Assembly: GCF_007990635.1 (NCBI RefSeq)
Contig: NZ_AP019846.1
Span: 310,001 to 374,000, forward strand
Origin: Leptotrichia hongkongensis
GTDB lineage: Bacteria > Fusobacteriota > Fusobacteriia > Fusobacteriales > Leptotrichiaceae
Length of the DNA: 64,000 nucleotides
Direction: 5' to 3'
The notes beneath the pieces are model-generated. The model made no database searches and had not been told where the DNA came from. It saw only the letters and a program-made list of their open reading frames with translations. Position numbers and translations under genes: made by a program. This document shows, in pieces, positions 22,480 through 56,929 of this stretch (the first letter of the stretch is position 1; the number at the start of each line of letters is the position of its first letter).

Positions 22480-24189
22480 ATGGTTGCAACAATACAAGTT
22501 AATAAGCAAAGCATCAAACAGTTGCTGGAAAGTGGAAAAGATCAGATGTTTTTAATACCTGAATATCAGAGACCATATTCCTGGACTGAAAATGAGACTA
22601 AGACGTTGTTTTATGATTTATTAGAATTTACTGAAAATGAGTCAAAGAGAAATAGTGAAGTAGAAGGAACATATTTTTTAGGGAGCATAGTTTCGTATGA
22701 AAATGAGAATGGGGAACAGGAAATAATTGACGGGCAGCAGAGAATTACTTCATTGTTTCTTCTTTTGCGTGCAATTTATACAAAATTAGTTTCCTATGAG
22801 GAAAAAACTGTTGAACAGGAAAATTTTATAAGACAGATTCAGCCTGCACTCTGGAAGCAGGAGAAATTAACTGGAGAAGTTGATTATAAAAGCGTACTTA
22901 TAAATTCACGAGTTATAGATAATGAAGGAAATAAAATTTTACAAAATATTTTGGAAACTGGAGTTGCTGATCCTGAGGCTACGGACAATTATTCAAAAAA
23001 TTATATTTTATTTCAAAAGTTATTTGACAAACTTTGTGAATTAAGCCCTACATTAATGCTTGAATTTATTTACTATACTTTAAATAGAGCGGTAGTCTTT
23101 CCAATAAATACAGATTCGCAAGATGATGCATTAAGTGTATTTTCTACTTTGAATGACAGAGGATTACCACTTTCTGAAGCTGATATTTTTAAGGCAAAAA
23201 TGTATAACCGAATCAAAAAAGAATACAAGAAAATGTTTATAAAACAGTGGAAAAAACTAAGTGAACGGGCAATTTATGCTAAAGAAAATGTAAAACAGCT
23301 ATTTTATTATTATATGTTTTATCTAAGGGCAGTAGAAAAAGATGTGGCAACGACTACACTTGGACTTAGACGTTTTTATTCAAAGGGTGGATTTACAAGG
23401 CTTTATAAATCAAATCTTTTGAAGCATCTGGATCAGATTCTTGATTTATGGGTTGTGATGAATAGGCATGAATCAATAGATGACAAGCCTTGGACAGAAA
23501 ATATACAGATTATAAAGATTTTGGATACTTTATCAGCTTATCCAAATGAATCTTGGAAATATCCTGTTGTTGTCTATTATTTGTCACATGGCGAAAAAGA
23601 AAATTTTGAAACTTATTTCTTAAAATTTTTAAGAAAGCTATTTTTGGAATTGACAGCAAATTATCTTGTAACACCGAGTGTTGCCGCTGTAAAAGCTGAT
23701 ATTCTTAAACTTAATGTTGATATTGTTGATAATATTTCTCCAAAAATTGCATTCAAGAATATTCCCATTTCAATATTGCAGGAAAAAGTCAAGACACCAA
23801 ACAAAAATCTTGTGCGTATGATTTTAAAAATGGTTGTTTACAACAATCAAGATGAATTACTTCCTGAAAAATGGGAAATTGAATATATATTGCCACAAAA
23901 ATGGAGTAACCGTTTCTCAGAAAGTGTTGAAAATAAACAGGTTAAAGAATATATAAATTATATTGGAAACAAGATTCCTTTTGAAAAGAAATTGTCGATT
24001 AAAGCTTCAGAAAACTTTTTTGAAAAGAAAAAAGCAAGTTATGAAAAATCTAAAATTAAATATGTACGTGAACTAATCCCAGCAGACAAGACTGACTGGA
24101 CTTTTGAAGACATTAATATAAGAAACAAAAAAGTAGCAGAAGAGCTTGTTAAATTGTTTATTACTTGGAATGGAGAATATGAATTTTAA
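22480..24189 (+). CDS. DUF262/DUF1524 (GmrSD-like) protein with degenerate HNH
   Basis: The 569-residue protein has an N-terminal DUF262 ParB/sulfiredoxin-like domain (IPEYQRPYSW, LGSIV, IIDGQQRITSL near residues 82-93). The C-terminal part aligns with the DUF1524 HNH nuclease domain. The family motif EHI-LPQ reads EYILPQKW (about 468-475), so the catalytic His is Tyr, and the asparagines of the following N-x-K-x-S-N segment are Ser and Glu (KLSIKASENFF). Relatives such as GmrSD cleave modified phage DNA. The intact DGQQR with a lost HNH suggests a sensor or NTPase without cleavage. The gene stands alone with its own promoter. Confidence 0.8.
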   Translation: MVATIQVNKQSIKQLLESGKDQMFLIPEYQRPYSWTENETKTLFYDLLEFTENESKRNSEVEGTYFLGSIVSYENENGEQEIIDGQQRITSLFLLLRAIYTKLVSYEEKTVEQENFIRQIQPALWKQEKLTGEVDYKSVLINSRVIDNEGNKILQNILETGVADPEATDNYSKNYILFQKLFDKLCELSPTLMLEFIYYTLNRAVVFPINTDSQDDALSVFSTLNDRGLPLSEADIFKAKMYNRIKKEYKKMFIKQWKKLSERAIYAKENVKQLFYYYMFYLRAVEKDVATTTLGLRRFYSKGGFTRLYKSNLLKHLDQILDLWVVMNRHESIDDKPWTENIQIIKILDTLSAYPNESWKYPVVVYYLSHGEKENFETYFLKFLRKLFLELTANYLVTPSVAAVKADILKLNVDIVDNISPKIAFKNIPISILQEKVKTPNKNLVRMILKMVVYNNQDELLPEKWEIEYILPQKWSNRFSESVENKQVKEYINYIGNKIPFEKKLSIKASENFFEKKKASYEKSKIKYVRELIPADKTDWTFEDINIRNKKVAEELVKLFITWNGEYEF

Positions 24190-24282: not shown

Positions 24283-24311
24283 TTGAAATTTAAAATAAAA
24301 AGGTATATAAT
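24283..24311 (+). promoter_or_regulatory. Promoter of the HMA/P1B-ATPase cluster
   Basis: TTGAAA and TATAAT are 17 bases apart. The predicted start near 24318 lies after the in-frame ATG at 24317, which supports the ATG at 24341 as the real first codon. I see no convincing Fur-box palindrome here. Confidence 0.7.
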
Positions 24312-24340
24312 AGTTTATGAAAATATTTAAGGAGTTTGTT

Positions 24341-24826
24341 ATGTTACAAAATTTTTATGGCGTTATTCAAGTAAAACATTACCAGAATGGACGTTTGAGA
24401 CTTCAAACAGATGTATTAAAGGAAAATGAAGAATTAGAACAGGAATTTTTAAATAATATACGTCAATTATCAGGAATACACTCAGTAAGCGTTAATTCCA
24501 TTATTGGAAGCATCTTAATTTATTTTGATGAAAAAATTATTGAAAGTTCGTTTTTATATTTAATCGTACTAAAACTGCTCCATCTGGAAGAAGAAGCCTT
24601 AAAAAATAAGCCTGGAAAAGTAAAAAAATTGTTAAAACAGGCATTTGAATCTGTTGATATGGCTATTTACAATAAAAGTAGAGGTTATCTGGACTTAAAG
24701 ACATTAGTTGCAGGAATTTTTGCTTTTTATGGCATTAAAAAATTAAGAGAAATTCCAAAATTGCCTACAGGTACTACTTTATTATGGTGGGCTTTTATTT
24801 TTTTATCAGAAGGGAAAAGAAAATAA
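24341..24826 (+). CDS. HMA-like membrane-associated protein with R-rich motif (1)
   Basis: The 161-residue protein begins with an HMA-like (ferredoxin-fold) segment that lacks the metal-binding CxxC. Its start carries the motif KHYQNGRLRL, of the H-x3-G-R-x-R type shared by its neighbours. Two hydrophobic stretches near the C-terminus (LVAGIFAFYGI and TLLWWAFIFL) suggest membrane association. The ATG at 24341 has AAGGAG six bases upstream; the ATG 24 bases earlier has none. It is the first gene of a cluster with a P1B-ATPase and resembles small proteins encoded in ferrosome clusters. Confidence 0.7.
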   Translation: MLQNFYGVIQVKHYQNGRLRLQTDVLKENEELEQEFLNNIRQLSGIHSVSVNSIIGSILIYFDEKIIESSFLYLIVLKLLHLEEEALKNKPGKVKKLLKQAFESVDMAIYNKSRGYLDLKTLVAGIFAFYGIKKLREIPKLPTGTTLLWWAFIFLSEGKRK

Positions 24827-25197
24827 TGTTAGAAAATTTATTTAAGGCTACATATCTGATGTTTAATCAGATAAAGGTTGTACACAGTATTCCTGGCAGA
24901 TTAAGGCTTTCGGTCCCAAATTTGTCAAAGATTCCAGAAGAATTAAAAAAATATGATTATCGAGTTACAGAACTTATTTTATCAAAAAAAGGCATAAAAA
25001 GTATTGAGTATTCGTATGTGACAAATAAAATTCTGCTTTACTATGATGTAAAATTAATTTCAGAAAAACAAATACTGGACTGGCTGAACAAAGTATGGAA
25101 AACTATGATTAATCATTCTGAATTATATGAAAATAAATCCTTAAAGGAAATAGAAGATAATTTGGATACTTTTTATAACATAATTAAAGAACTTTAA
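24826..25197 (+). CDS. HMA-like protein with R-rich motif (2)
   Basis: The 123-residue protein is a single HMA-like domain without cysteines. It carries VVHSIPGRLRLSVPNL near its start, the cleanest example of the H-x3-G-R-x-R motif in the cluster. The ATG at 24826 overlaps the preceding stop by one base (TAATG), implying translational coupling; an upstream in-frame ATG at 24784 would overlap the first gene by 43 bases and is less likely. No signal peptide or membrane segment is apparent. Confidence 0.7.
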   Translation: MLENLFKATYLMFNQIKVVHSIPGRLRLSVPNLSKIPEELKKYDYRVTELILSKKGIKSIEYSYVTNKILLYYDVKLISEKQILDWLNKVWKTMINHSELYENKSLKEIEDNLDTFYNIIKEL

Positions 25198-25230
25198 TTA
25201 TTGCCAAAATGAAAAAAGAAAGGGATTTTT

Positions 25231-27411
25231 ATGTTAAATAAAGATTATTTGCTGGACTGCAAGATTTTACACGAAATTCGTGGAAGAATCAGAATAAAAT
25301 CAAGAGCTTTAAAATATCTTGGAATTCATAAGGAAGAGATAACAAAGCAGCTAATGCAGGTTCATTATATCCAAAGTGTTGAGATTTCAAGTATTACAGG
25401 AACTATTCTTGTTTATTTTGACAATTTCTCATTAACTGGTGAAAACTTAATATCTTTACTTCAAAATACATTAAATACATATCTAGTAGATATATACAAA
25501 AACGAAAAAAAACAAATATCAAATAAATATGTGATTGAAAGACGTCTGCAGGAAGAATCTCCACAGGAAATTATTAAAAATATTGGTGCTGCTGTACTTT
25601 TACTGCTACTGCCAAATCCAAAGACAAAATTAACAGGAATCAGGCGCCTATTTAACTACAAAACTTTATCAACAGTTTCTTTAGCCCTGCCTGTTTTAAA
25701 AAATGGAATTTATTCTCTTATTCAAAATAAGCGTCCCAACGCAGATACGCTAAGTTCTACAGCTATTGTCAGCAGCATTATTTTAGGAAGTGAACGAACA
25801 GCTTTGACAATTATGATTTTAGAAAAATTTGCAGAGCTTCTGACTGTTTATACAATGAAAAAGACACGTGGCGTAATTAAAGACATGTTAAGTGTTGGAG
25901 AAAACTATGTCTGGAAGCAGTCTGATGATGGAAATACGGCCAAAAAAGTTCCAATTGAAGAAATTAGCAAGGGAGATTTTATACTTGTTCAAACTGGGGA
26001 AAAAATAAGTGTGGATGGAACGATTGAAAAAGGTGAGGCGATAATTGATCAGTCGGCAATTACTGGGGAATATATGCCTGTTACGAAAAAGGCTGGAGAA
26101 GAAGTTTTTGCAGGAACACTTTTAAAAAGTGGAAATATTACTGTAAAAGCTGAGAAGGTTGGAGATGACAGGACAGCTTCCAGAATTATAAAATTAGTGG
26201 AAGATGCCGCTTTTAACAAGGCTGATATTCAATCTTACGCCGATACATTTTCTGCACAGTTAATCCCGCTTAACTTTCTGCTCGCCGGAATTGTCTATGT
26301 TTCAACGAAAAACTTGCAAAAAGCCCTTAGTATGCTTGTAATTGACTATTCATGCGGAATAAGGCTGTCAACAGCAACAGCATTTTCAGCTTCAATTAAT
26401 ACAGCGGCTAAAAATGGAATTTTGATTAAAGGAAGCAACTATCTGGAAGAACTTTCAAGATCTGACACAGTAATATTTGACAAAACAGGTACAATTACCG
26501 AAGGAAAACCTAAAATTCAAACGCTGAAGACTTTTGGAAAAAATATGAAAGACAACCGAATGCTTGCACTAGCTGCCGCGGCTGAAGAAACTTCATCACA
26601 TCCTTTAGCAAGTGCAATTTTGAATGAAATTAAAAATAGAGGATTAAAAATTCCAAAACATAAGGAATCCGTTATTAAAGTTGCAAGAGGGATAGAAACT
26701 TTTATAAATAAGGATATTATTCGTGTAGGAAGCCTGAAATACATGGAAGAGAACGATATTTCACTAGAAGTGGCAAGTGATATAGTGAAGGGAATGCAAA
26801 ATCGTGGAGAAATTGTAATTTACGTGGCTAAAAATAATGATTTAATAGGTGTTATCGGTGTTTCAGATCCGCCTAGGGAAAATATAAAAAAGGCAATGAA
26901 TCGGCTAAGAAATCAAGGAATAGATGATATTGTACTGTTAACGGGAGATTTGAGACAGCAGGCTGAAACTATCGCTTCAAGAATGTCAATGGATAGATAC
27001 GAGTCTGAACTGATGCCTGAGGACAAGGCTAAAGATATTTTAAAATTCCGTTCAATTGGTTCAAAAGTTATTATGATAGGTGACGGAATAAACGACGCTC
27101 CTGCCCTTTCCTACGCAAATGTAGGAATAGCTCTAGGAAGTTCACGTACCGACATTGCGATGGAAGCTGCTGATGTTACAATAACTTCAGACGACCCATT
27201 ACTAATACCAGGTGTAATTGGTTTAGCAAAAAACACTGTAAAAATAATAAAGCAGAATTTTGCAATGGCAATTGGAATAAATAGTTTTGCCCTTGTATTA
27301 GGTGCAACAGGACTTCTGCCTGCAATATACAGTTCAATTTTGCATAACTCTATCACAATTTTAGTAGTTGGAAATTCATTGCGACTATTAAAATACGATG
27401 TTAATAAATAA
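25231..27411 (+). CDS. P1B-type (P1B-6-like) metal-transporting ATPase
   Basis: The 726-residue P-type ATPase has an N-terminal HMA-like domain with the R-rich motif ILHEIRGRIRIK and no CxxC. The catalytic core is intact: the actuator loop TGE, the phosphorylated DKTGT (D417), the HP motif SSHPLA and GDGINDAP (about 617-624). The membrane metal-site motif is DYSCG (372-376) instead of CPC. That substitution, and an R-rich start, are features I associate with P1B-6 ATPases such as the ferrosome protein FezB. Iron is the favoured substrate by analogy only. It is third in the cluster, with an AAGGGA ribosome site. Confidence 0.85.
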   Translation: MLNKDYLLDCKILHEIRGRIRIKSRALKYLGIHKEEITKQLMQVHYIQSVEISSITGTILVYFDNFSLTGENLISLLQNTLNTYLVDIYKNEKKQISNKYVIERRLQEESPQEIIKNIGAAVLLLLLPNPKTKLTGIRRLFNYKTLSTVSLALPVLKNGIYSLIQNKRPNADTLSSTAIVSSIILGSERTALTIMILEKFAELLTVYTMKKTRGVIKDMLSVGENYVWKQSDDGNTAKKVPIEEISKGDFILVQTGEKISVDGTIEKGEAIIDQSAITGEYMPVTKKAGEEVFAGTLLKSGNITVKAEKVGDDRTASRIIKLVEDAAFNKADIQSYADTFSAQLIPLNFLLAGIVYVSTKNLQKALSMLVIDYSCGIRLSTATAFSASINTAAKNGILIKGSNYLEELSRSDTVIFDKTGTITEGKPKIQTLKTFGKNMKDNRMLALAAAAEETSSHPLASAILNEIKNRGLKIPKHKESVIKVARGIETFINKDIIRVGSLKYMEENDISLEVASDIVKGMQNRGEIVIYVAKNNDLIGVIGVSDPPRENIKKAMNRLRNQGIDDIVLLTGDLRQQAETIASRMSMDRYESELMPEDKAKDILKFRSIGSKVIMIGDGINDAPALSYANVGIALGSSRTDIAMEAADVTITSDDPLLIPGVIGLAKNTVKIIKQNFAMAIGINSFALVLGATGLLPAIYSSILHNSITILVVGNSLRLLKYDVNK

Positions 27412-27447
27412 AAATTTTTGTGTTTTTGAAGGAGTTTGAATTAAGAT

Positions 27448-28194
27448 ATGAAAAAACTAACCTTAATAATACTGCATAAATTACCGAATCGTGTCAGATT
27501 CAAAATTTCACACGATATTGCCAATACAAAAAAATTTTTTGAAACAGTAAAAGTTGAAACTAAAAATACAGCTTTACGGTATAATCAGACTATAAATACT
27601 TTGCTCGTTACATTTGAGCCTGAAGAAATTTCAATAGATGAAGTAATTTACCGAACTGCGACTGCCTTATCAGTTGAACATGGCATGACTTCAGTAAAAC
27701 TTGTTGAAGATTTTGAAGAAAAATCAATAGATTTACTGTCTGTTTATTCTGGAGCCGCAATATTACTTTCTTTCCTGTATGGGCTTGGCAAAAGTAAAGT
27801 TGAAAAATTACAAATGGGCATAAATAACTTTACAGCAGGGCTGACAACCGCAGCAATTATCGAGCATGCTTACAGGGAAACACAGCGTAAAGGTTTTTTT
27901 GACATTGAAATATTGCCTGCATTATATTTGCTCAAATCGTATCTGGCAAACAGATCGGTTACAGCGATAGCGCTTATGTGGTTTACAACTTTTGGACGGC
28001 ATCTTGTATTAAATAACTTTTCCAACAAGGAAGTAAGAATTTATCGTTTAAAAGCTGATAATGGAAAATCTCATTATGTTGTAGATGTAAGAAATGATAA
28101 TTCTATTGAAAATCTGAGTGATTTGATAGATCACATATTTTTCAATAACAGGGCAGGCAATGAGCCAGATGACAAATACATTGCTTTGCAATAA
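27448..28194 (+). CDS. HMA-like membrane protein of the P1B-ATPase cluster
   Basis: The 248-residue protein starts with an HMA-like domain and a variant R-rich motif (LHKLPNRVRF, with Asn in place of Gly). The middle has hydrophobic stretches (VYSGAAILLSFLYGL, then a GLTTAAII segment). The C-terminal segment IYRLKADNGKSHYVVDVRN is polar. AAGGAG lies 13 bases before ATG, longer than usual. Its N-terminus resembles the ATPase's own, so it may be a partner or scaffold protein. I do not assign a specific Fez name. Confidence 0.6.
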   Translation: MKKLTLIILHKLPNRVRFKISHDIANTKKFFETVKVETKNTALRYNQTINTLLVTFEPEEISIDEVIYRTATALSVEHGMTSVKLVEDFEEKSIDLLSVYSGAAILLSFLYGLGKSKVEKLQMGINNFTAGLTTAAIIEHAYRETQRKGFFDIEILPALYLLKSYLANRSVTAIALMWFTTFGRHLVLNNFSNKEVRIYRLKADNGKSHYVVDVRNDNSIENLSDLIDHIFFNNRAGNEPDDKYIALQ

Positions 28195-28244
28195 AAATTA
28201 ATAAATGATAAAATAATAACAAATAAAAATTTGGAGGTATAAAA

Positions 28245-28532
28245 ATGATAAAATTTGGAAACATTAAAAAGGAACATTTAGTAGGAGCAGCAATCGGAGT
28301 AGGAACTGTAGCAGTAGGTTATTACCTGTACAAAAAAAATCAAAATAAAGTTGACAGTTTTTTAAGAAAACAAGGAATAAATATAAAAACATCTTCAGAA
28401 GCAACTTATGATAATATGAACCTTGAAGAATTGATGACAACAAAGGAACATCTTGAAGATTTAATTGCTGAAAAAGAACTATCTACAAACACAGCCTCTG
28501 TAGAAGCAGTTGTGGAAACTGAAACAAAATAA
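28245..28532 (+). CDS. Small membrane-anchored protein of the P1B-ATPase cluster
   Basis: The 95-residue protein has one hydrophobic segment near its start (LVGAAIGVGTVAVGYYLY) followed by a charged, helix-prone tail ending in a low-complexity Val/Glu/Thr stretch. GGAGG lies seven bases upstream of ATG. It is the last gene of the cluster; gpmA follows after 62 bases. Small single-span proteins of this type occur beside P1B-6 ATPases, but I cannot assign a role. Confidence 0.6.
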   Translation: MIKFGNIKKEHLVGAAIGVGTVAVGYYLYKKNQNKVDSFLRKQGINIKTSSEATYDNMNLEELMTTKEHLEDLIAEKELSTNTASVEAVVETETK

Positions 28533-50390: not shown

Positions 50391-51110
50391 TCACAATTGA
50401 TATAAAAAGTAAAAGAGAAGTATGCTCTGCATTTTTTTCATTTTAAAAAGCCTAAATTTTACTTTTGGAATCTGTCGTTTCCGGATTACATCAATAATAT
50501 CATCTATAATTTTAGAAATTCTGTCATCTTCTATTATTATATCTATTTGAGATCTTTTTAACTGTCTTTCAGGTACAAAACAGATTTCTTTTTTTCCGTC
50601 AAGAAGATAAATATGGGATTTAGAGTATATTATTTGAGTTCCAAATATAGGAAACAATTCAGTTCCCCAGTTATAGCCCTTAATATCCAATAATTTTCCA
50701 TTTAAATAAAAATCTTCATTTATTATTTCAAGTGTATTTTCTGTTTTTTCTTTTGAATAATAATATTTATATCCATATATCATACTTATTACAGCACAGA
50801 CTATTAAAAGCAATATTCCAAGTTTTATTCCCAAAAATATTAATATTAGCATTATGGCAAAGCAAATAAGATTTAAAACAACTGCTTTTTTCAAATTCTC
50901 CGGCACTTCATAAAATACTCTTCCTGTTTCCGTCTTTTTACGGTAAACTGTATCAGCTGCTAAAATTCCAAGTTTTATTTTCTCTTTAACCTCATCTTCC
51001 TGTTTTTGATTAATTTTACGAAGTTTTTTTCTGTTTTTTATTTGTTTCACACCAAAAACGATTAATATAACAGCAACTGAAAGATACACTAATACAATAA
51101 TTGAATTCAT
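50391..51110 (-). CDS. Duplicated membrane protein, C-terminally frameshifted copy (A2)
   Basis: The 239-residue product is a close paralogue of the 49427-50206 protein. Near the end its frame shifts: the coded tail is LLFYFLYQL, but a shifted frame reads LFISIVILVSLYKSKAYMYLF to a stop at 50344, matching the paralogue's tail. The final membrane segment is therefore altered. The start at 51110 has GGAGGGG. The gene may be partly or wholly non-functional. Confidence 0.7.
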   Translation of the reverse strand: MNSIIVLVYLSVAVILIVFGVKQIKNRKKLRKINQKQEDEVKEKIKLGILAADTVYRKKTETGRVFYEVPENLKKAVVLNLICFAIMLILIFLGIKLGILLLIVCAVISMIYGYKYYYSKEKTENTLEIINEDFYLNGKLLDIKGYNWGTELFPIFGTQIIYSKSHIYLLDGKKEICFVPERQLKRSQIDIIIEDDRISKIIDDIIDVIRKRQIPKVKFRLFKMKKMQSILLFYFLYQL

Positions 51111-51126
51111 TTCAGTCCCCTCCGTA

Positions 51127-51789
51127 TTAATAAGATATTCCTTGGGCTGTTATACGGACTCTATCAGCATTCACTTTTAAAATAGCTTCAAGTATTTGTT
51201 TTCCTGCATCCCTTAATTGAGCGGTAGTCTGTGAATTAGGATTGCTCTGATTTAAGGACTGTCCCACAGCTAAAGTCATTCCAACCATAACCATCTGGTC
51301 GTACATACTTTTTTTCTCCCTGTTGCTCATTCCGTCAAAAAATCCGCTGTTTTCAAGATGAGCCTTGAACTGATCTGCCATAGGTTTCACATAGTCATCA
51401 TTAAGACTTATATTGTTATATGCCATGTATGCTCCTGCTATTACAGCCGCTACTGCTGAAGACAGATCATTTGTCGGTATTCCTACAGAATGGGCTACCT
51501 GTGGAAAAGAATCATACAGCTGTTTTAATGATGCCCTTATTTCCTTTTGCTGGCTTTTTGGATAAGTTGCAACCAATGTTTCCAGTCCATCGGTACTTCC
51601 GTCCTGTGTGAAAGTAAGTGATGATTTTCCGTAAGATTTACCTTGTGAAGATGAAGTTGTATTTAAAAGTTCCTGCATTATTTCATTTTTAAACATATCG
51701 CTGTAGTCAGCATGAGCTTGTCCTGAAATTCCAAGTCCCAGTGCTAAAATACTTAAAAGAAATATTTTTTTCATAAATTTTGCTTTCAT
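51127..51789 (-). CDS. DUF6683-like secreted protein (X1)
   Basis: The 220-residue precursor has a signal peptide (ILALGLGISGQAHA) and the family's C-terminal domain: YPKSQQKEIRASLKQLYDSF, VGIPTNDLSSAVAAVIAGAYMAYNN and the end ADRVRITAQGISY. Unlike X2-X4 it has only a short linker after the signal peptide. AGGAGG precedes ATG 51789. The DUF6683 label is from memory of the conserved pattern; the function of that family is unknown. It is followed by the membrane protein A2 after 17 bases. Confidence 0.75.
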   Translation of the reverse strand: MKAKFMKKIFLLSILALGLGISGQAHADYSDMFKNEIMQELLNTTSSSQGKSYGKSSLTFTQDGSTDGLETLVATYPKSQQKEIRASLKQLYDSFPQVAHSVGIPTNDLSSAVAAVIAGAYMAYNNISLNDDYVKPMADQFKAHLENSGFFDGMSNREKKSMYDQMVMVGMTLAVGQSLNQSNPNSQTTAQLRDAGKQILEAILKVNADRVRITAQGISY

Positions 51790-51822
51790 AACTTTTCCTC
51801 CTGTAATTTTTTTATTTTACTG

Positions 51823-52548
51823 TTAATTTAAATCAGATAATTTTTTCCTGTTTTCCTCATATTTTTTACTATTAGTAGATTTTAACATTTCATTATCCTT
51901 TTTGGCATTTTCTAAAGCTATGTTATACAAAAGGGGATTATAGTTTTCTTTTAGAAATTTTTGGTTAATTATAAAAGTTTCTACTGCTTTTTCATTATTT
52001 CCTGACAATCTGTAAGCCTGTATCAAATTTTTTTCAATTATCTCTGAAAGTACATTATTTAATACTTTAATATCCTTATATTCAGCATAACTCTGTTTAC
52101 CATGTTTTAAAATACCTATTGCTTTTTCATAATATTCAGCACTTTCCTCATATTTTTTTTCATAAAAGAGAATATCTGCCATCACTCTGTAACCATAAGA
52201 ATAATCAGGAGCATTTTTTAAAAATATTTCTGTAATTTCCTTTGTTCTTTTAAATTCACGGTTTTGATAAAATGCCACAGTTACATAATTATGGTATTTC
52301 TCAAGATTTTTGCTGTCCTTTAAAAATTCCTCTTCCGCTTTTTTTATAACTTCTTCTGATGAAACTTCTTTCTGCTTTTCTATTTCAGAGCTGTCTTTTT
52401 CTGAATTCTTTTTATTTTCTTCAGTTTTATTTTTATCGCTCTGGCTTGTATTAATATTATTACCTTTTTTTGTTTTATTTTGTTCCTGTTTCTTATTGCA
52501 GCTAAAAACAACAAAAACTATCATAGCTATCATTAAAATTTTTTTCAA
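51823..52548 (-). CDS. TPR-like lipoprotein
   Basis: The product has a lipoprotein signal (KKILMIAMIVFVVFSC as lipobox) followed by a very charged Lys/Glu/Asn/Ser linker and then helical repeats of TPR type (SYGYRVMADILFYEKKYEESA and YYEKAIGIL). I place the start at the TTG at 52548, which has GGGGA upstream and puts the lipobox near the N-terminus; an ATG at 52653 would add 35 residues and overlap the TraX gene. It is probably a periplasm-facing or surface scaffold. Confidence 0.65.
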   Translation of the reverse strand: MKKILMIAMIVFVVFSCNKKQEQNKTKKGNNINTSQSDKNKTEENKKNSEKDSSEIEKQKEVSSEEVIKKAEEEFLKDSKNLEKYHNYVTVAFYQNREFKRTKEITEIFLKNAPDYSYGYRVMADILFYEKKYEESAEYYEKAIGILKHGKQSYAEYKDIKVLNNVLSEIIEKNLIQAYRLSGNNEKAVETFIINQKFLKENYNPLLYNIALENAKKDNEMLKSTNSKKYEENRKKLSDLN

Positions 52549-52642
52549 TTTTATCACTTCCCCAATGGATACAGAATTTTTTATGTTTTTTATTTTCTTA
52601 ACAGTTCTTCTTAAACTTTTGCTTTGTAAATATTGGCTTGAC

Positions 52643-53461
52643 TTAATTTCCATAATTCTTACCTATCAAAGAAATCAGATATATCATAAAAGAAACATAA
52701 ATCGCCACTATTAGTAAAAGGTGTAATGGATAAAAGAAATAAAACATATATTTTGTAAATCTGTTATGAATACCCTGCTTTCCGTTGTAAAGCCATATTA
52801 TCGGCAGTGAAAATATCGCAAATATCTGTGTTTTTATAAATATCTCATTTCCAAAAAAGTTAAACGGAAATTCAAGTCCAGGCATAATAAATACGTTTAG
52901 AAACACCATTAATACAGCCTGAAATATTATATTCCTGTAATTTTTCCCCCTGAAAAAATAGAATATCAGAATAATTGCAATTCCATATCCTAAATAATCA
53001 CTTCTTGCAAAATGTGCAATTGCGACAGTTAAAATGCTTATGGCAGCTTTTGCAAAAAATTTTATTATTTTATTCATATTTTCTGATTTTTCCGTTTTTT
53101 CCAGTAAATTCATTCCGCATAAGGCAATTCCGAAAGTCCATAATACATTGTTATATGGATAAAATACCATTATTTCTCCTCTTAATGCCAGACTTGCAAA
53201 AAAATTGAACGGAATTTCCGAAATAGCTGCAAAAATAAAGATACGTATTAAATATTTTTTTCTGTTTTTAGTCCTGTAAAATCCTTCCGTAAGTATAAAG
53301 GCAAAAATAGGAAAGGCAAGTCTTCCAAGCACATTTAACCATATCTGATTAGGAAAAAATATATTCCACAGATGATCTGCCACCATAAATGCCATTGCTA
53401 GAATATGTAGTGTAAAAGAATTTATCCCTTTAGAAAATATATCTTTTTTATTCATTTTCAC
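52643..53461 (-). CDS. TraX-family membrane protein
   Basis: The 272-residue protein is a polytopic membrane protein of the TraX family, whose F-plasmid member acetylates pilin. The N-terminal FTLHILAMAFMVADHLWN (the conserved His region) and the LGRLAFPIFAFILTEGFYRTKN segment are typical, as is the C-terminal FYPLHLLLI motif. Chromosomal TraX proteins without conjugation genes are common, with unknown substrates. It is in the same direction as, and amid, the DUF6683-like genes. Confidence 0.85.
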   Translation of the reverse strand: MKMNKKDIFSKGINSFTLHILAMAFMVADHLWNIFFPNQIWLNVLGRLAFPIFAFILTEGFYRTKNRKKYLIRIFIFAAISEIPFNFFASLALRGEIMVFYPYNNVLWTFGIALCGMNLLEKTEKSENMNKIIKFFAKAAISILTVAIAHFARSDYLGYGIAIILIFYFFRGKNYRNIIFQAVLMVFLNVFIMPGLEFPFNFFGNEIFIKTQIFAIFSLPIIWLYNGKQGIHNRFTKYMFYFFYPLHLLLIVAIYVSFMIYLISLIGKNYGN

Positions 53462-53476
53462 TCCTATTCTATTATT

Positions 53477-54256
53477 TTAATAAGAAAGCCCTGATGCCGT
53501 TATTCTCACTTTGCTTGCACTTACTCCAAGAAGTCCCTCAAGCACCTTTTTACCAGCCTGTCTTAATTGAGCTGTAGTCTTTGCATTTGGATTTTGTTGA
53601 TTTTGAGACTGATTTACTGCCAAAGTCATCCCTATTATTACCATTTGGTCATAAATATATTTTTTTTGGCTGTCACTCATTTTATCAAATTCAGAAACAC
53701 TTTGCATAGCTTCTTTAAACTGATTTGCAATAGGTTTCATATAATTATCGTTAAGGCTGACATTGTTATAAGCCATATATGCTCCTGCTACAACAGCTGC
53801 CATTCCTGTTGATAAATCATTTGTAGGTATTCCTACAGAACGTGCTACTTGCGGGAATGAATCCTGTAATTTTTTCAATATAGGTTTCACTTGGGCTCTT
53901 TTATTTGAAGGATATTGAAGAACTAAATCATCTAATCCTTTTGTATTTCCATCAGGTTTAAATGTTATTTTAGCTTTTTTTGTAGAAGTAACTGTCTTAG
54001 CACTTGTCGATGAAGATGTATTTTTTTTATTCGACGATGTTTTTTTTGACATTAAATTATTATATTCGTCTTCTCCATACATTTCCTCATATCTTTCTCT
54101 ATTTCTTTTTTCCTGTTCTCTTGCATTTTTGAGCCCTTGATTAGCCATCCATTGTGCATTATAATCAATAAAAAAACCGTAAGCCTGATTTGAAATCCCA
54201 AAACTTAATGCTGCTATTATTGTTAAAAATATTTTTTTTATTTGCTTAACTTTCAT
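53477..54256 (-). CDS. DUF6683-like secreted protein (X2)
   Basis: The 259-residue precursor has a signal peptide (IIAALSFGISNQAYG), a charged region with a Ser/Thr/Lys linker (STSAKTVTSTKKAK), and the C-terminal family domain: PDGNTKGLDDLVLQYPS, VGIPTNDLSTGMAAVVAGAY and SASKVRITASGLSY at the end. Its tail is the closest to X3 and X4. AGAGGAG precedes ATG. It lies 16 bases upstream of the TraX gene in the same direction. Confidence 0.78.
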   Translation of the reverse strand: MKVKQIKKIFLTIIAALSFGISNQAYGFFIDYNAQWMANQGLKNAREQEKRNRERYEEMYGEDEYNNLMSKKTSSNKKNTSSSTSAKTVTSTKKAKITFKPDGNTKGLDDLVLQYPSNKRAQVKPILKKLQDSFPQVARSVGIPTNDLSTGMAAVVAGAYMAYNNVSLNDNYMKPIANQFKEAMQSVSEFDKMSDSQKKYIYDQMVIIGMTLAVNQSQNQQNPNAKTTAQLRQAGKKVLEGLLGVSASKVRITASGLSY

Positions 54257-54357
54257 AATTTCTCCTCTTAAATTGAATTATATATTTTCATTTTTTTGTT
54301 TTTTTTCATTATTACTACATACTGTTATAAAACTTCTTATTTTTGTAATTATTTATT

Positions 54358-55140
54358 TTAATAAACAAGCCCTGACGATGTTATTTTTACTTTACTTGCA
54401 TTTACTTTAAGAACTCCCTCAAGTACTTCTTTTCCCGCTCTTCTTAATTGAGCAGTAACTTTTGCATTTGGATTTTGCTGATTTTGGGACTGATTTACAG
54501 CTAAAGTCATTCCTATTATTACCATTTGGTCATAAATATATTTTTTATCACTATCACTCATTTTATCAAACTCAGTTACACTTTCTAGAGCTTCCTTAAA
54601 CTGTTTTGCCATAGGTTTCATATAACTGTCATTTAAACTGACATTATTATAAGCCATATATGCTCCAGCTAATATAGCAACCATTCCTGAAGACAGGTCA
54701 TTTGTAGGTATTCCTACTGAACGTGCTACCTGCGGGAAAGAATCCTGCATCTGTTTCAGGTATGTTCTCGCTTCTCCTCTTTGTTTTGAAGGGTATCTGT
54801 TAACAAGATAATCAAGTCCTCTTGTACTTCCATCCGATTTAAAAGTTATTTTGGCTTTTTTTGCCGGTTTTGGTTTAGACGATGTTTGGGATGATGATGA
54901 TTTACTTTTACTGCTTCCTGTACTCTTAGAGCTTGAACTTTTTCCACTTGAACTGTTGTTATTTGTATTATTACCAAAAACTCTATTATGATTCTCAAAA
55001 GTTCTTCTCATTATATCCTGCTGAATCCAGTCACTGTTATAATCATACCAGTATCCCATAAATGCATGTGCAGGTTGTGATACAAATAATCCCGCTCCAA
55101 TAACTGCTGTAACAAATAGTTTTTTTAAATTTATTTTCAT
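54358..55140 (-). CDS. DUF6683-like secreted protein (X3)
   Basis: The 260-residue precursor has the signal VTAVIGAGLFVSQPAHA, which is nearly the same as X4's, then an extended Ser-rich linker (SSSGKSSSSKSTGSSKSKS) and the family C-terminal domain ending KVKITSSGLVY. The 5' and intergenic sequences are nearly identical to those of X4, so X3 and X4 are a recent duplication. GGAGGA precedes ATG. Confidence 0.78.
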   Translation of the reverse strand: MKINLKKLFVTAVIGAGLFVSQPAHAFMGYWYDYNSDWIQQDIMRRTFENHNRVFGNNTNNNSSSGKSSSSKSTGSSKSKSSSSQTSSKPKPAKKAKITFKSDGSTRGLDYLVNRYPSKQRGEARTYLKQMQDSFPQVARSVGIPTNDLSSGMVAILAGAYMAYNNVSLNDSYMKPMAKQFKEALESVTEFDKMSDSDKKYIYDQMVIIGMTLAVNQSQNQQNPNAKVTAQLRRAGKEVLEGVLKVNASKVKITSSGLVY

Positions 55141-55225
55141 AATTATTCCTCCTAAATTAAATTATATATTTTTATATTATTACTATATACTACGATAAAA
55201 CTTCTTATTTTTGTAATTATTTATT

Positions 55226-56002
55226 TTAATAAGAAAGCCCTGATGATGTGATTTTTACTTCACTTGCATTTACTCCAAGAAGTCCTTCAAGCACCTGTTT
55301 TCCTGCGTTTCTTAATTGGGCAGTAACTTTTGCATTTGGATTTTGCTGGTTTTGGGACTGATTTACAGCCAAACTCATTCCTATTATTACCAATTGATCG
55401 TAAATGTATTTTTTATCACTGTTACTCATTTTATCAAAGTCATCTACACCTTGAAGCACTGTTTTTAACTGATTTTGCATAGGTTTCATATAATCATCAT
55501 TCAGACTTACATTGTTATATGCCATATATGCTCCTGCTATTGCAGCTGCCAATCCTGAAGACAGGTCATTTGTAGGTATTCCTACTGAACGTGCTACCTG
55601 CGGGAAAGAATCCTGCATCTGTTTCAGGTATGTTCTTGCTTCTCCTCTCTGTTTTGACGGATAGTTATTAACAAAATAATCAAGTCCTCTTGTATTTCCG
55701 TCCGATTTAAAAGTAATATTTGCTTTTGTTGTTTTTGGGGCTGTAGTTGAAGTTGCTGAACTTCCCGTTGTTTTTGTAGTTGTTTTTTTAGAATTTGATT
55801 TTTTCTTTGAAGAATAATCTCCTTTTTTAATGTGGCTTATTACTTCACTACCAAGTAAATAATTTCTTGTACTATTTATCACATTGTTCGTATAGTTAAA
55901 ACTGTCTGACATATCATAATAAAATGCGTGTGCAGGCTGTGATACAAATATTCCCACTACAATAACTGCTGTAACAAATAGTTTTTTTAAATTTATTTTC
56001 AT
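55226..56002 (-). CDS. DUF6683-like secreted protein (X4)
   Basis: The 258-residue precursor has the signal VTAVIVVGIFVSQPAHA, a shorter Thr/Ala-rich linker (KKTTTKTTGSSATSTTAPK) and the same C-terminal domain ending EVKITSSGLSY. The family-wide pattern is a conserved signal, a linker that differs in sequence and length, and a conserved tail, which suggests surface or periplasmic proteins with a variable spacer. GGAGGA precedes ATG. Confidence 0.78.
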   Translation of the reverse strand: MKINLKKLFVTAVIVVGIFVSQPAHAFYYDMSDSFNYTNNVINSTRNYLLGSEVISHIKKGDYSSKKKSNSKKTTTKTTGSSATSTTAPKTTKANITFKSDGNTRGLDYFVNNYPSKQRGEARTYLKQMQDSFPQVARSVGIPTNDLSSGLAAAIAGAYMAYNNVSLNDDYMKPMQNQLKTVLQGVDDFDKMSNSDKKYIYDQLVIIGMSLAVNQSQNQQNPNAKVTAQLRNAGKQVLEGLLGVNASEVKITSSGLSY

Positions 56003-56098
56003 AATTATTCCTCCTAAAAATTTTATTTTTTATGATTTCTATTATTTAATTATACTGTATATTTTTTAGATTAAAAGAACATTAGAGCTTTTTCCTTT

Positions 56099-56929
56099 CT
56101 ATTTATTTTTTGATGTTTTTTTAAATATGAGATTACTCTCAGGAACTCCGATATAAAGAATTTGCTCGTTATCCATAAGCGTTATTACATCGGCATTGCT
56201 TAAATCATCTAAAAAATCTTTATCCCTGTCGTTCAGTCCGCTTCCTTTTTTCAGCAGATTACTCAAATTATCTATTTCAAAAGAAATTCTGTGATTTTTC
56301 AGGAAATATTTTCCCGAATATTTTTTCCCGTTTTTTCCTGTTATGACAACATTTCCTTTATCAAGTTTTATTGAAATTTCACTGTTTTTAAGTTCAAGTC
56401 CTGCAATATTCATAAGTGTCCATTCATTAGCCATTATTTTTTTCTCAAAATCTTTAATATTACTAAAAAATGAAAATCTGTCTTTATATTTTTCTTTAGA
56501 ATATTTTTCCATATTATTTAACATAAAGCCGTCCCCTTTTTCAAAGCTGTTTTTCAAAAAATCGGGAATATCCTTTCTGTATATGAGATATACAGTTTCA
56601 TAATTTTTGTTATCCACATAGACAGGATAATAGCCGTAATCAGAATTTCCTAACGACAGCATAGGCGAAAGGATTGCTTTAACTATTCCATTTTTGAGAT
56701 TCTGCACCATAATATTACTGTCCTTATATTCAGTCGCTTTGAAAATAGTATAAGTGGGAGAATGCTCTATTTTTTCAGCAAATTCCCTGTCAATCTCATT
56801 GGATACACCTACTTCTAATATATATCCCTTGTCTATTATGTCTTTTTTTAAAGGTTTTCCACAGGAAATAAATATTATTCCAAAAAGTAGAAAAATTATA
56901 AATCCTGTCAATTTTTTAATTTTTATCAT
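56099..56929 (-). CDS. Lipoprotein with META/HslJ-like C-terminal region
   Basis: The 276-residue precursor has the lipobox IFISC (Cys23). The C-terminal part, from about residue 170 (NEWTLMNIAGLELKNSEISI, GKNGKKYSGKYFLKNHRISFE), resembles META-type domains of stress-related lipoproteins, although this is a weak impression. The N-terminal part is not recognised. The gene overlaps the upstream membrane-protein gene by 14 bases. AAGGAG precedes ATG. Confidence 0.65.
   Translation of the reverse strand: MIKIKKLTGFIIFLLFGIIFISCGKPLKKDIIDKGYILEVGVSNEIDREFAEKIEHSPTYTIFKATEYKDSNIMVQNLKNGIVKAILSPMLSLGNSDYGYYPVYVDNKNYETVYLIYRKDIPDFLKNSFEKGDGFMLNNMEKYSKEKYKDRFSFFSNIKDFEKKIMANEWTLMNIAGLELKNSEISIKLDKGNVVITGKNGKKYSGKYFLKNHRISFEIDNLSNLLKKGSGLNDRDKDFLDDLSNADVITLMDNEQILYIGVPESNLIFKKTSKNK

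Follow-up and report, generated by a model that had tools for sequence, protein, structure and literature searches.

To our knowledge, few bacteria have so far been demonstrated to form ferrosomes. The original ferrosome study reportedly recorded many bacterial and archaeal fez clusters, which may already include some of the five-gene loci considered here. In Clostridioides difficile, ferrosomes need both FezA and FezB, and both are Fur-repressed (PMC12574912). The same pair of genes, CD630_05910 and CD630_05920, is induced by low iron and also in a fur mutant (PMC6311696). Rhodopseudomonas palustris has six fez genes, RPA2333-2338 (PMC12016538), and some fez clusters include a FezC/DUF4405-type cytochrome (PMC10979944). 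In P1B6 transporters, the HN of TM6 is conserved and the partner is a DUF6110 protein, and CtpC is a P1B6-like transporter with CPC (PMC9374683). The literature that we searched, with the original ferrosome papers outside the search, yielded no paper combining fezB with Fusobacter and no report in which a member of the five-gene branch had been tested.

The DNA analyzed here is a 64,000-nucleotide stretch of the Leptotrichia hongkongensis genome (2.28 Mb in total), which is referred to as the window. Between positions 24341 and 28532 it carries five genes, all on the plus strand, which had been described in the original prediction as same-strand genes under one consensus promoter; the positions proved right and the promoter is near-consensus, matching at 11 of 12 positions. 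The features of the locus are as follows.

24283..24311, plus strand: operon promoter TTGAAA-17-TATAAT, 11/12 consensus, conserved in seven genus-level sequences.
24341..24826, plus strand: g1, a 161-aa HMA_2 protein with KHYQNGRLRL and without CxxC (PF19991 over its full length, 3.4e-54).
24826..25197, plus strand: g2, a 123-aa HMA_2-like protein with VHSIPGRLRL (PF19991, 8.9e-8; syntenic homologue in 25 loci).
25231..27411, plus strand: FezB-like P1B-6 ATPase, 726 aa (assigned from Pfam/TIGR01525, motifs and tree).
27448..28194, plus strand: g4, a 248-aa HMA-fold protein with LHKLPNRVRF and a helical region (invariant columns, predicted model and fold matches).
28245..28532, plus strand: g5, a 95-aa single-span protein with the C-terminal end KEHLEDLIAEKE (profile match to FezA/DUF6110; conserved in 25 loci).

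We consider it probable that these five genes function together as a single cassette that stores iron in the manner of a ferrosome and belongs to a distinct branch. This reading draws on the operon, the class of the pump, the conserved gene set, the remote FezA homology and the iron-gene neighbors of some relatives, each of which is described below.

The promoter is the sole 11/12 match on the plus strand 5' of the five genes, and when seven genus-level upstream regions are aligned, strong conservation ahead of g1 is confined to its core, TTGtAATTTAAAATaAAAAGgTATATAAT. In the same alignments, ATG-TTA/CTG-CAA is conserved at 24341 and the in-frame ATG at 24317 is not, and the start of g1 was therefore placed at 24341. 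The start of g2 overlaps the stop of g1 (TAATG). Homologues of the cassette in a genome of the same genus, presumably that of Leptotrichia sp. oral taxon 879 (NZ_KI271357.1), are 98-99.7% identical to the window proteins. Immediately 5' of the cassette (22480-24189) lies a gene for a DUF262-like protein of 569 aa that matches PADLOC HEC-06 (8.7e-44) and Orf5. Of the homologous loci that were read, just the window, L047 and L058 have this gene, which suggests a variable defense-type insertion next to a stable operon. Elsewhere in the window, the minus strand has at 50391-56929 a series of eight adjacent ORFs that differ little in length (220-276 aa) and are possibly a tandem gene family.

A detailed reading of 20 fusobacterial loci showed the gene order g1-g2-ATPase-g4-g5 to be kept throughout (L052 is cut at a contig end). 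The flanks of the cassette vary among these loci, and a downstream gpmA is common only to the closest relatives. The same gene set occurs in Bacteroidales MAGs (a few of these loci have a truncated g2 or none that was recognized), in Desulfosporosinus, in Acidaminobacter together with about 20 further genomes of the order containing it, and in a Spirochaeta MAG, so that at least four phyla, Fusobacteriota, Bacteroidota, Bacillota and Spirochaetota, carry the cassette. A further genome group, reached via G349 and not part of Desulfobacterota, gave a match in 3 of its 52 genomes. Pfam HMA_2 was detected in 44 of 98 Fusobacteriota genomes, a count that includes some lone HMA_2 domains in other ATPases, and among the 44 are all 12 of the other sampled Leptotrichia-genus genomes. 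Because the gene set stays together across four phyla while its surroundings change, the five genes are best regarded as one functional unit.

Four of the five proteins had been predicted to carry an H-x3-(G/N)-R-x-R motif. With 60 aa as the minimum ORF length, the window has exactly four occurrences of the motif, one per protein (g1, g2, ATPase and g4), against 0.09 occurrences per window expected by shuffling. Its [GN]RxR part is retained in nearly all homologues (23/24 for g1, 23/25 for g2, 25/25 for the ATPase and 25/25 for g4). Consistent with the further claim that the HMA-like domains are without their usual metal site, none of the 24-25 homologues of each of g1, g2, FezB and g4 has a CxxC within its first 100 residues. 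The HMA-like nature of the proteins rests on Pfam for g1, g2 and the N-terminus of the ATPase (PF19991, 7.6e-11). For g4, whose value for PF19991 (0.12) is below the Pfam threshold, it rests on the predicted fold and on a mutual match between the g1 and g4 profiles (97%). PF19991 has no occurrence in the 2.28 Mb genome other than at the five-gene locus.

Predicted models of g1 (AlphaFold, pLDDT 78) and g4 (pLDDT 77.6) both consist of a ferredoxin-like HMA domain followed by helices, which are C-terminal in g1. In Foldseek, g1 resembles metal-binding domain 3 of RAN1 (probability 1.00, TM-score 0.70 by target), and the HMA part of g4 resembles CopP/MerP/CopZ metallochaperone folds with target-normalized TM-scores of 0.5-0.7. 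The HMA fold was assigned by shape and probability because the Foldseek E-values are above 0.01; matches were confined to the HMA part, with no E-value below 0.001 for the helical parts of g4 and g1, and a PDB sequence search with g1 gave no match. In the helical region of g4, residues H140, D152, E154, W178, R184 and H185 are invariant in 20 of 20 aligned homologues. Four of these, H140, D152, E154 and H185, are hard ligands that as a set could directly bind iron. A FezC-type haem protein was also considered for g4 on the strength of its two invariant histidines, and was dropped as there is no DUF4405 match.

The ATPase matches the TIGR01525 heavy-metal P-type ATPase family (1e-168) and carries LHEIRGRIRI at its N-terminus, VIDYSCGIRLS in TM4 and LHNS in TM6. 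All the P1B-6 rows compared, that of the window ATPase included, share the HN of TM6 with CtpC, and CPC/SPC pumps do not have it. Another P1B-6 trait is a TM4 without CPC, here D-[YF]-S-C-[AG]. Neither hallmark of the CPC copper/zinc P1B pumps, a CPC in TM4 and a CxxC HMA domain, is present in the window ATPase. The same genome encodes a CopA-kind CPC pump with CxxC and a second CPC pump, both without the TM6 HN and DYSCG, which agrees with the original prediction that DYSCG replaces CPC in this P1B-type ATPase.

Membership of the P1B-6 group had been set beforehand as a check on the prediction. In a maximum likelihood tree of 38 pumps, a sample with the FezB of D. magneticus and Shewanella outside it, the window ATPase, with its TM6 HN, falls inside the P1B-6 clade (94/91). 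A CtpC-type pump is next outside (100/99), and the CPC and SPC pumps lie further out. The P1B-6 clade divides into two sister clades. Clade I (100/100) contains the Clostridioides-type FezB, Azospirillum and other proteobacterial pumps (six-gene clusters), and clade II (100/99) contains the window pump and all the five-gene loci, including that of Priestia. Judged from its sequence, the window ATPase is a P1B-6 member, and the cassette appears to represent a new sister branch to the tested ferrosome pumps with a five-gene design of its own.

Pumps with related features were seen elsewhere. On the Rhodococcus plasmid pDK1 (L200:4764-7254), an actinobacterial CtpC-type pump adjoining a PacL/DUF1490 gene has GRIR at its N-terminus, HN in TM6 and CPC in TM4, and seems to stand midway between the P1B-6 and the CPC pumps. 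The R-motif thus occurs outside fez as well, and by itself is not fez-specific. Other HMA_2/GRxR P-type ATPases with a different TM4, of about 620-630 and 1037-1067 aa, were observed in clostridia and Nitrospiraceae (L174:9452-13171, L176:3909-9434 and L236:8391-11594), either near fez-type loci or alone; the one in L174 adjoins a five-gene cassette.

The similarity of the neighboring genes to Fez proteins was the other point on which the prediction could be judged, and here both R-motif HMA_2 proteins and a remote FezA/DUF6110 relative were found. The g5 family profile scores 33.1 against the FezA/DUF6110-type profile, as compared with 17.6 for the best of 200 column shuffles, and the two types have the common ending (K/Q)E-x-(I/L/V)ED-(I/L/V)-(I/L)AE. 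A further match of the g5 profile is to the YtxH-like protein encoded in the Azospirillum cluster. None of the five window proteins matches DUF6110 or DUF1490 in Pfam. By its profile match, g5 is a remote relative of FezA/DUF6110 and a candidate scaffold of the FezA type.

A pump with a single-span scaffold could also serve a different purpose. The main rival to iron storage is an efflux platform: without any vesicle, the P1B-6 pump and its scaffold would gather at the plasma membrane and detoxify the cell by expelling Fe(II) or some other divalent metal. CtpC-PacL1 does so for zinc, and shares with the window cassette the GRxR N-terminus, the TM6 HN and the single-span partner; furthermore, the CtpC type is the nearest outgroup to P1B-6 in the pump tree, and PacL/DUF1490 has been described as related to DUF6110 (PMC9374683). 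However, TM4 of CtpC is CPC and that of the window pump is not, the sister branch within P1B-6 holds the organelle-forming C. difficile type (PMC12574912), and four R-motif proteins are more than an efflux pair would need. Export without a vesicle is therefore considered unlikely, although it deserves more weight than the other rivals.

The link of the cassette to iron comes from its relatives, and there is no direct iron signal in Leptotrichia itself. In L172, a co-directional feoA-feoA-feoB operon (FeoB by Pfam) lies directly upstream of the cassette, with a gap of 164 bp. In Desulfosporosinus (D. hippei), a perfect Fur box, TGATAATAATTATCA, is located 163 bp ahead of g1, and there are 3 such sites in the whole 4.9 Mb genome. 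Feo, ZIP, TroA/TroC or DtxR-type genes were found within 5 kb of 7 of 33 cassette loci and of 1 of 38 control loci, which are CPC-type and similar pumps (P = 0.017, Fisher; P = 0.013 with related flanks collapsed). Since the search terms came from the cassette loci themselves, this enrichment is suggestive rather than a clean test. The scan of upstream regions for Fur boxes gave a perfect site in D. hippei only and was at chance level elsewhere. No Fur box was detected upstream of the Leptotrichia operon, an absence that is uninformative because the same simple scan also misses the region upstream of Clostridioides fezA, a locus type reported to have one. The Leptotrichia genome also encodes Fur-family proteins and ferritins, so a ferrosome would not be its sole iron store. 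Two intact ferritin genes adjoin a Fur-family gene at G000:C1:1585597-1587216, and at G000:C1:1575221-1575643 there is a third, ferritin-like sequence whose reading frame is broken by a TAA.

Not all of the neighbors point to iron alone. Two same-family relatives have genes for troABC-like transport and for a Fe_dep_repress/FeoA-domain (DtxR-type) regulator adjoining the cassette, and two others have adjoining ZIP transporters, one of them also with a DtxR-like regulator. Such neighbors are compatible with manganese or zinc as well as with iron, and lend something to the possibility of a ferrosome-like compartment for one of these other metals. This possibility is improbable in our judgment, as relatives with Feo neighbors or a perfect Fur box argue for iron, and ZupT and flavodoxin of C. 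difficile are themselves Fur-controlled (PMC6311696). Very improbable, and already disfavored, is a conventional resistance pump for Cu/Zn/Cd that works with soluble chaperones: the TIGR01525 match would suit it, but pump and partners are without CPC and CxxC, the tree strongly supports a place for the ATPase apart from the CPC and SPC clades, and the genome already has two CPC pumps, one of them CopA-kind with CxxC.

Returning to ferrosome-kind storage, the claim of a ferrosome-like cluster stands as to the P1B-6 pump, the R-motif HMA_2 partners and the remote FezA relative, which supply three traits of the ferrosome family. It falls short in that the pump belongs to a sister clade of the tested FezB, the five-gene make-up is the cassette's own, and neither a Pfam FezC/DUF4405 nor a DUF6110 protein is found; FezC/DUF4405 (PF14358) had no match in the five window proteins at E up to 10. 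FezC is not universal in fez, because none is seen beside the Clostridioides pair either.

We infer Fe(II) as the cargo in Leptotrichia, and likewise the direction of transport, the organelle and the role of each HMA_2 protein. The P1B-6 ATPase would move Fe(II) from the cytoplasm into a membrane-bounded space, by means of Asp-Tyr-Ser-Cys of TM4 and His-Asn of TM6 instead of CPC. The FezA-like g5 may organize or shape the membrane patch around the pump, and the HMA_2 proteins, in which CxxC is lost and the H-x3-(G/N)-R-x-R edge is kept, may be adaptors to the pump or to lipid, not copper/zinc chaperones. Inside the compartment, iron would build up as a mineral, probably with phosphate. More tentatively, the cassette may be a second, independent ferrosome design, in which a P1B-6 pump and a FezA-like scaffold are combined with three CxxC-less HMA_2 adaptors, g4 possibly being iron-binding, and which would equip Leptotrichia, fusobacteria and several further anaerobic lineages with iron organelles inside the cell.

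The cassette is present in all 12 other sampled Leptotrichia-genus genomes and in several Fusobacterium lineages. If the storage reading is true, membrane-bounded iron storage would be extended to common oral and gut anaerobes, for which iron swings between scarce and plentiful. The five genes also constitute a defined gene set in which the need for each HMA_2 protein can be addressed, as can the question whether these proteins are adaptors or metal chaperones.

Among known systems, PacL1-CtpC of Mycobacterium tuberculosis resembles the window cassette in its P1B6-like pump with HN in TM6 and its single-span scaffold, and differs in the CPC of TM4, in its zinc substrate, in forming plasma-membrane foci rather than a vesicle, and in having no HMA_2 partners (PMC9374683). 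The Rhodococcus CtpC homologue shares GRIR with the window pump. The DUF1490 scaffold and the CPC pump that define PacL-CtpC are both absent from the window cassette. The operon on Priestia megaterium pBM400 has the same layout as that of the window, with two HMA2 proteins (annotated "HMA2 domain-containing protein"), the pump, another HMA2 protein and a small protein, and no study of it was found in the literature searched; its pump differs, being 38% identical to that of the window and having DFICG in TM4.

The six-gene cluster on Azospirillum brasilense plasmid p3 (L199:3212-7251) is like the window cassette in having GRxR HMA2 proteins (two HMA_2-like proteins there), a single-span protein, which is YtxH-like, and a P1B-6 pump, with DYSCA. 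It differs in its gene set and order, with the pump last, and its pump is in the other P1B-6 clade. An iron ABC transporter adjoins it. From the number of genes, this cluster presumably corresponds to the R. palustris arrangement.

Loci L166-L171 each encode a P1B-6 pump of 699 aa, preceded in L166 by a 131-aa single-span DUF6110 gene. Their gene order and strand fit C. difficile CD630_05910 (ATPase) and CD630_05920 (hypothetical), and on this basis and that of the published locus they presumably represent Clostridioides. The C. difficile fezA-fezB pair (CD630_05920/05910) differs from the window cassette in being a two-gene core with DUF6110, in having no HMA_2 partners beside it and in the separate clade of its pump. 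Nevertheless, the C. difficile-type and window pumps are 31-32% identical over their full length and share D-[YF]-S-C-[AG] in TM4, HN in TM6 and H-x3-G-R-x-R at the N-terminus, and their single-span partners share the end (K/Q)E-x-(V/L)ED-(I/L)-(L/I)AE.
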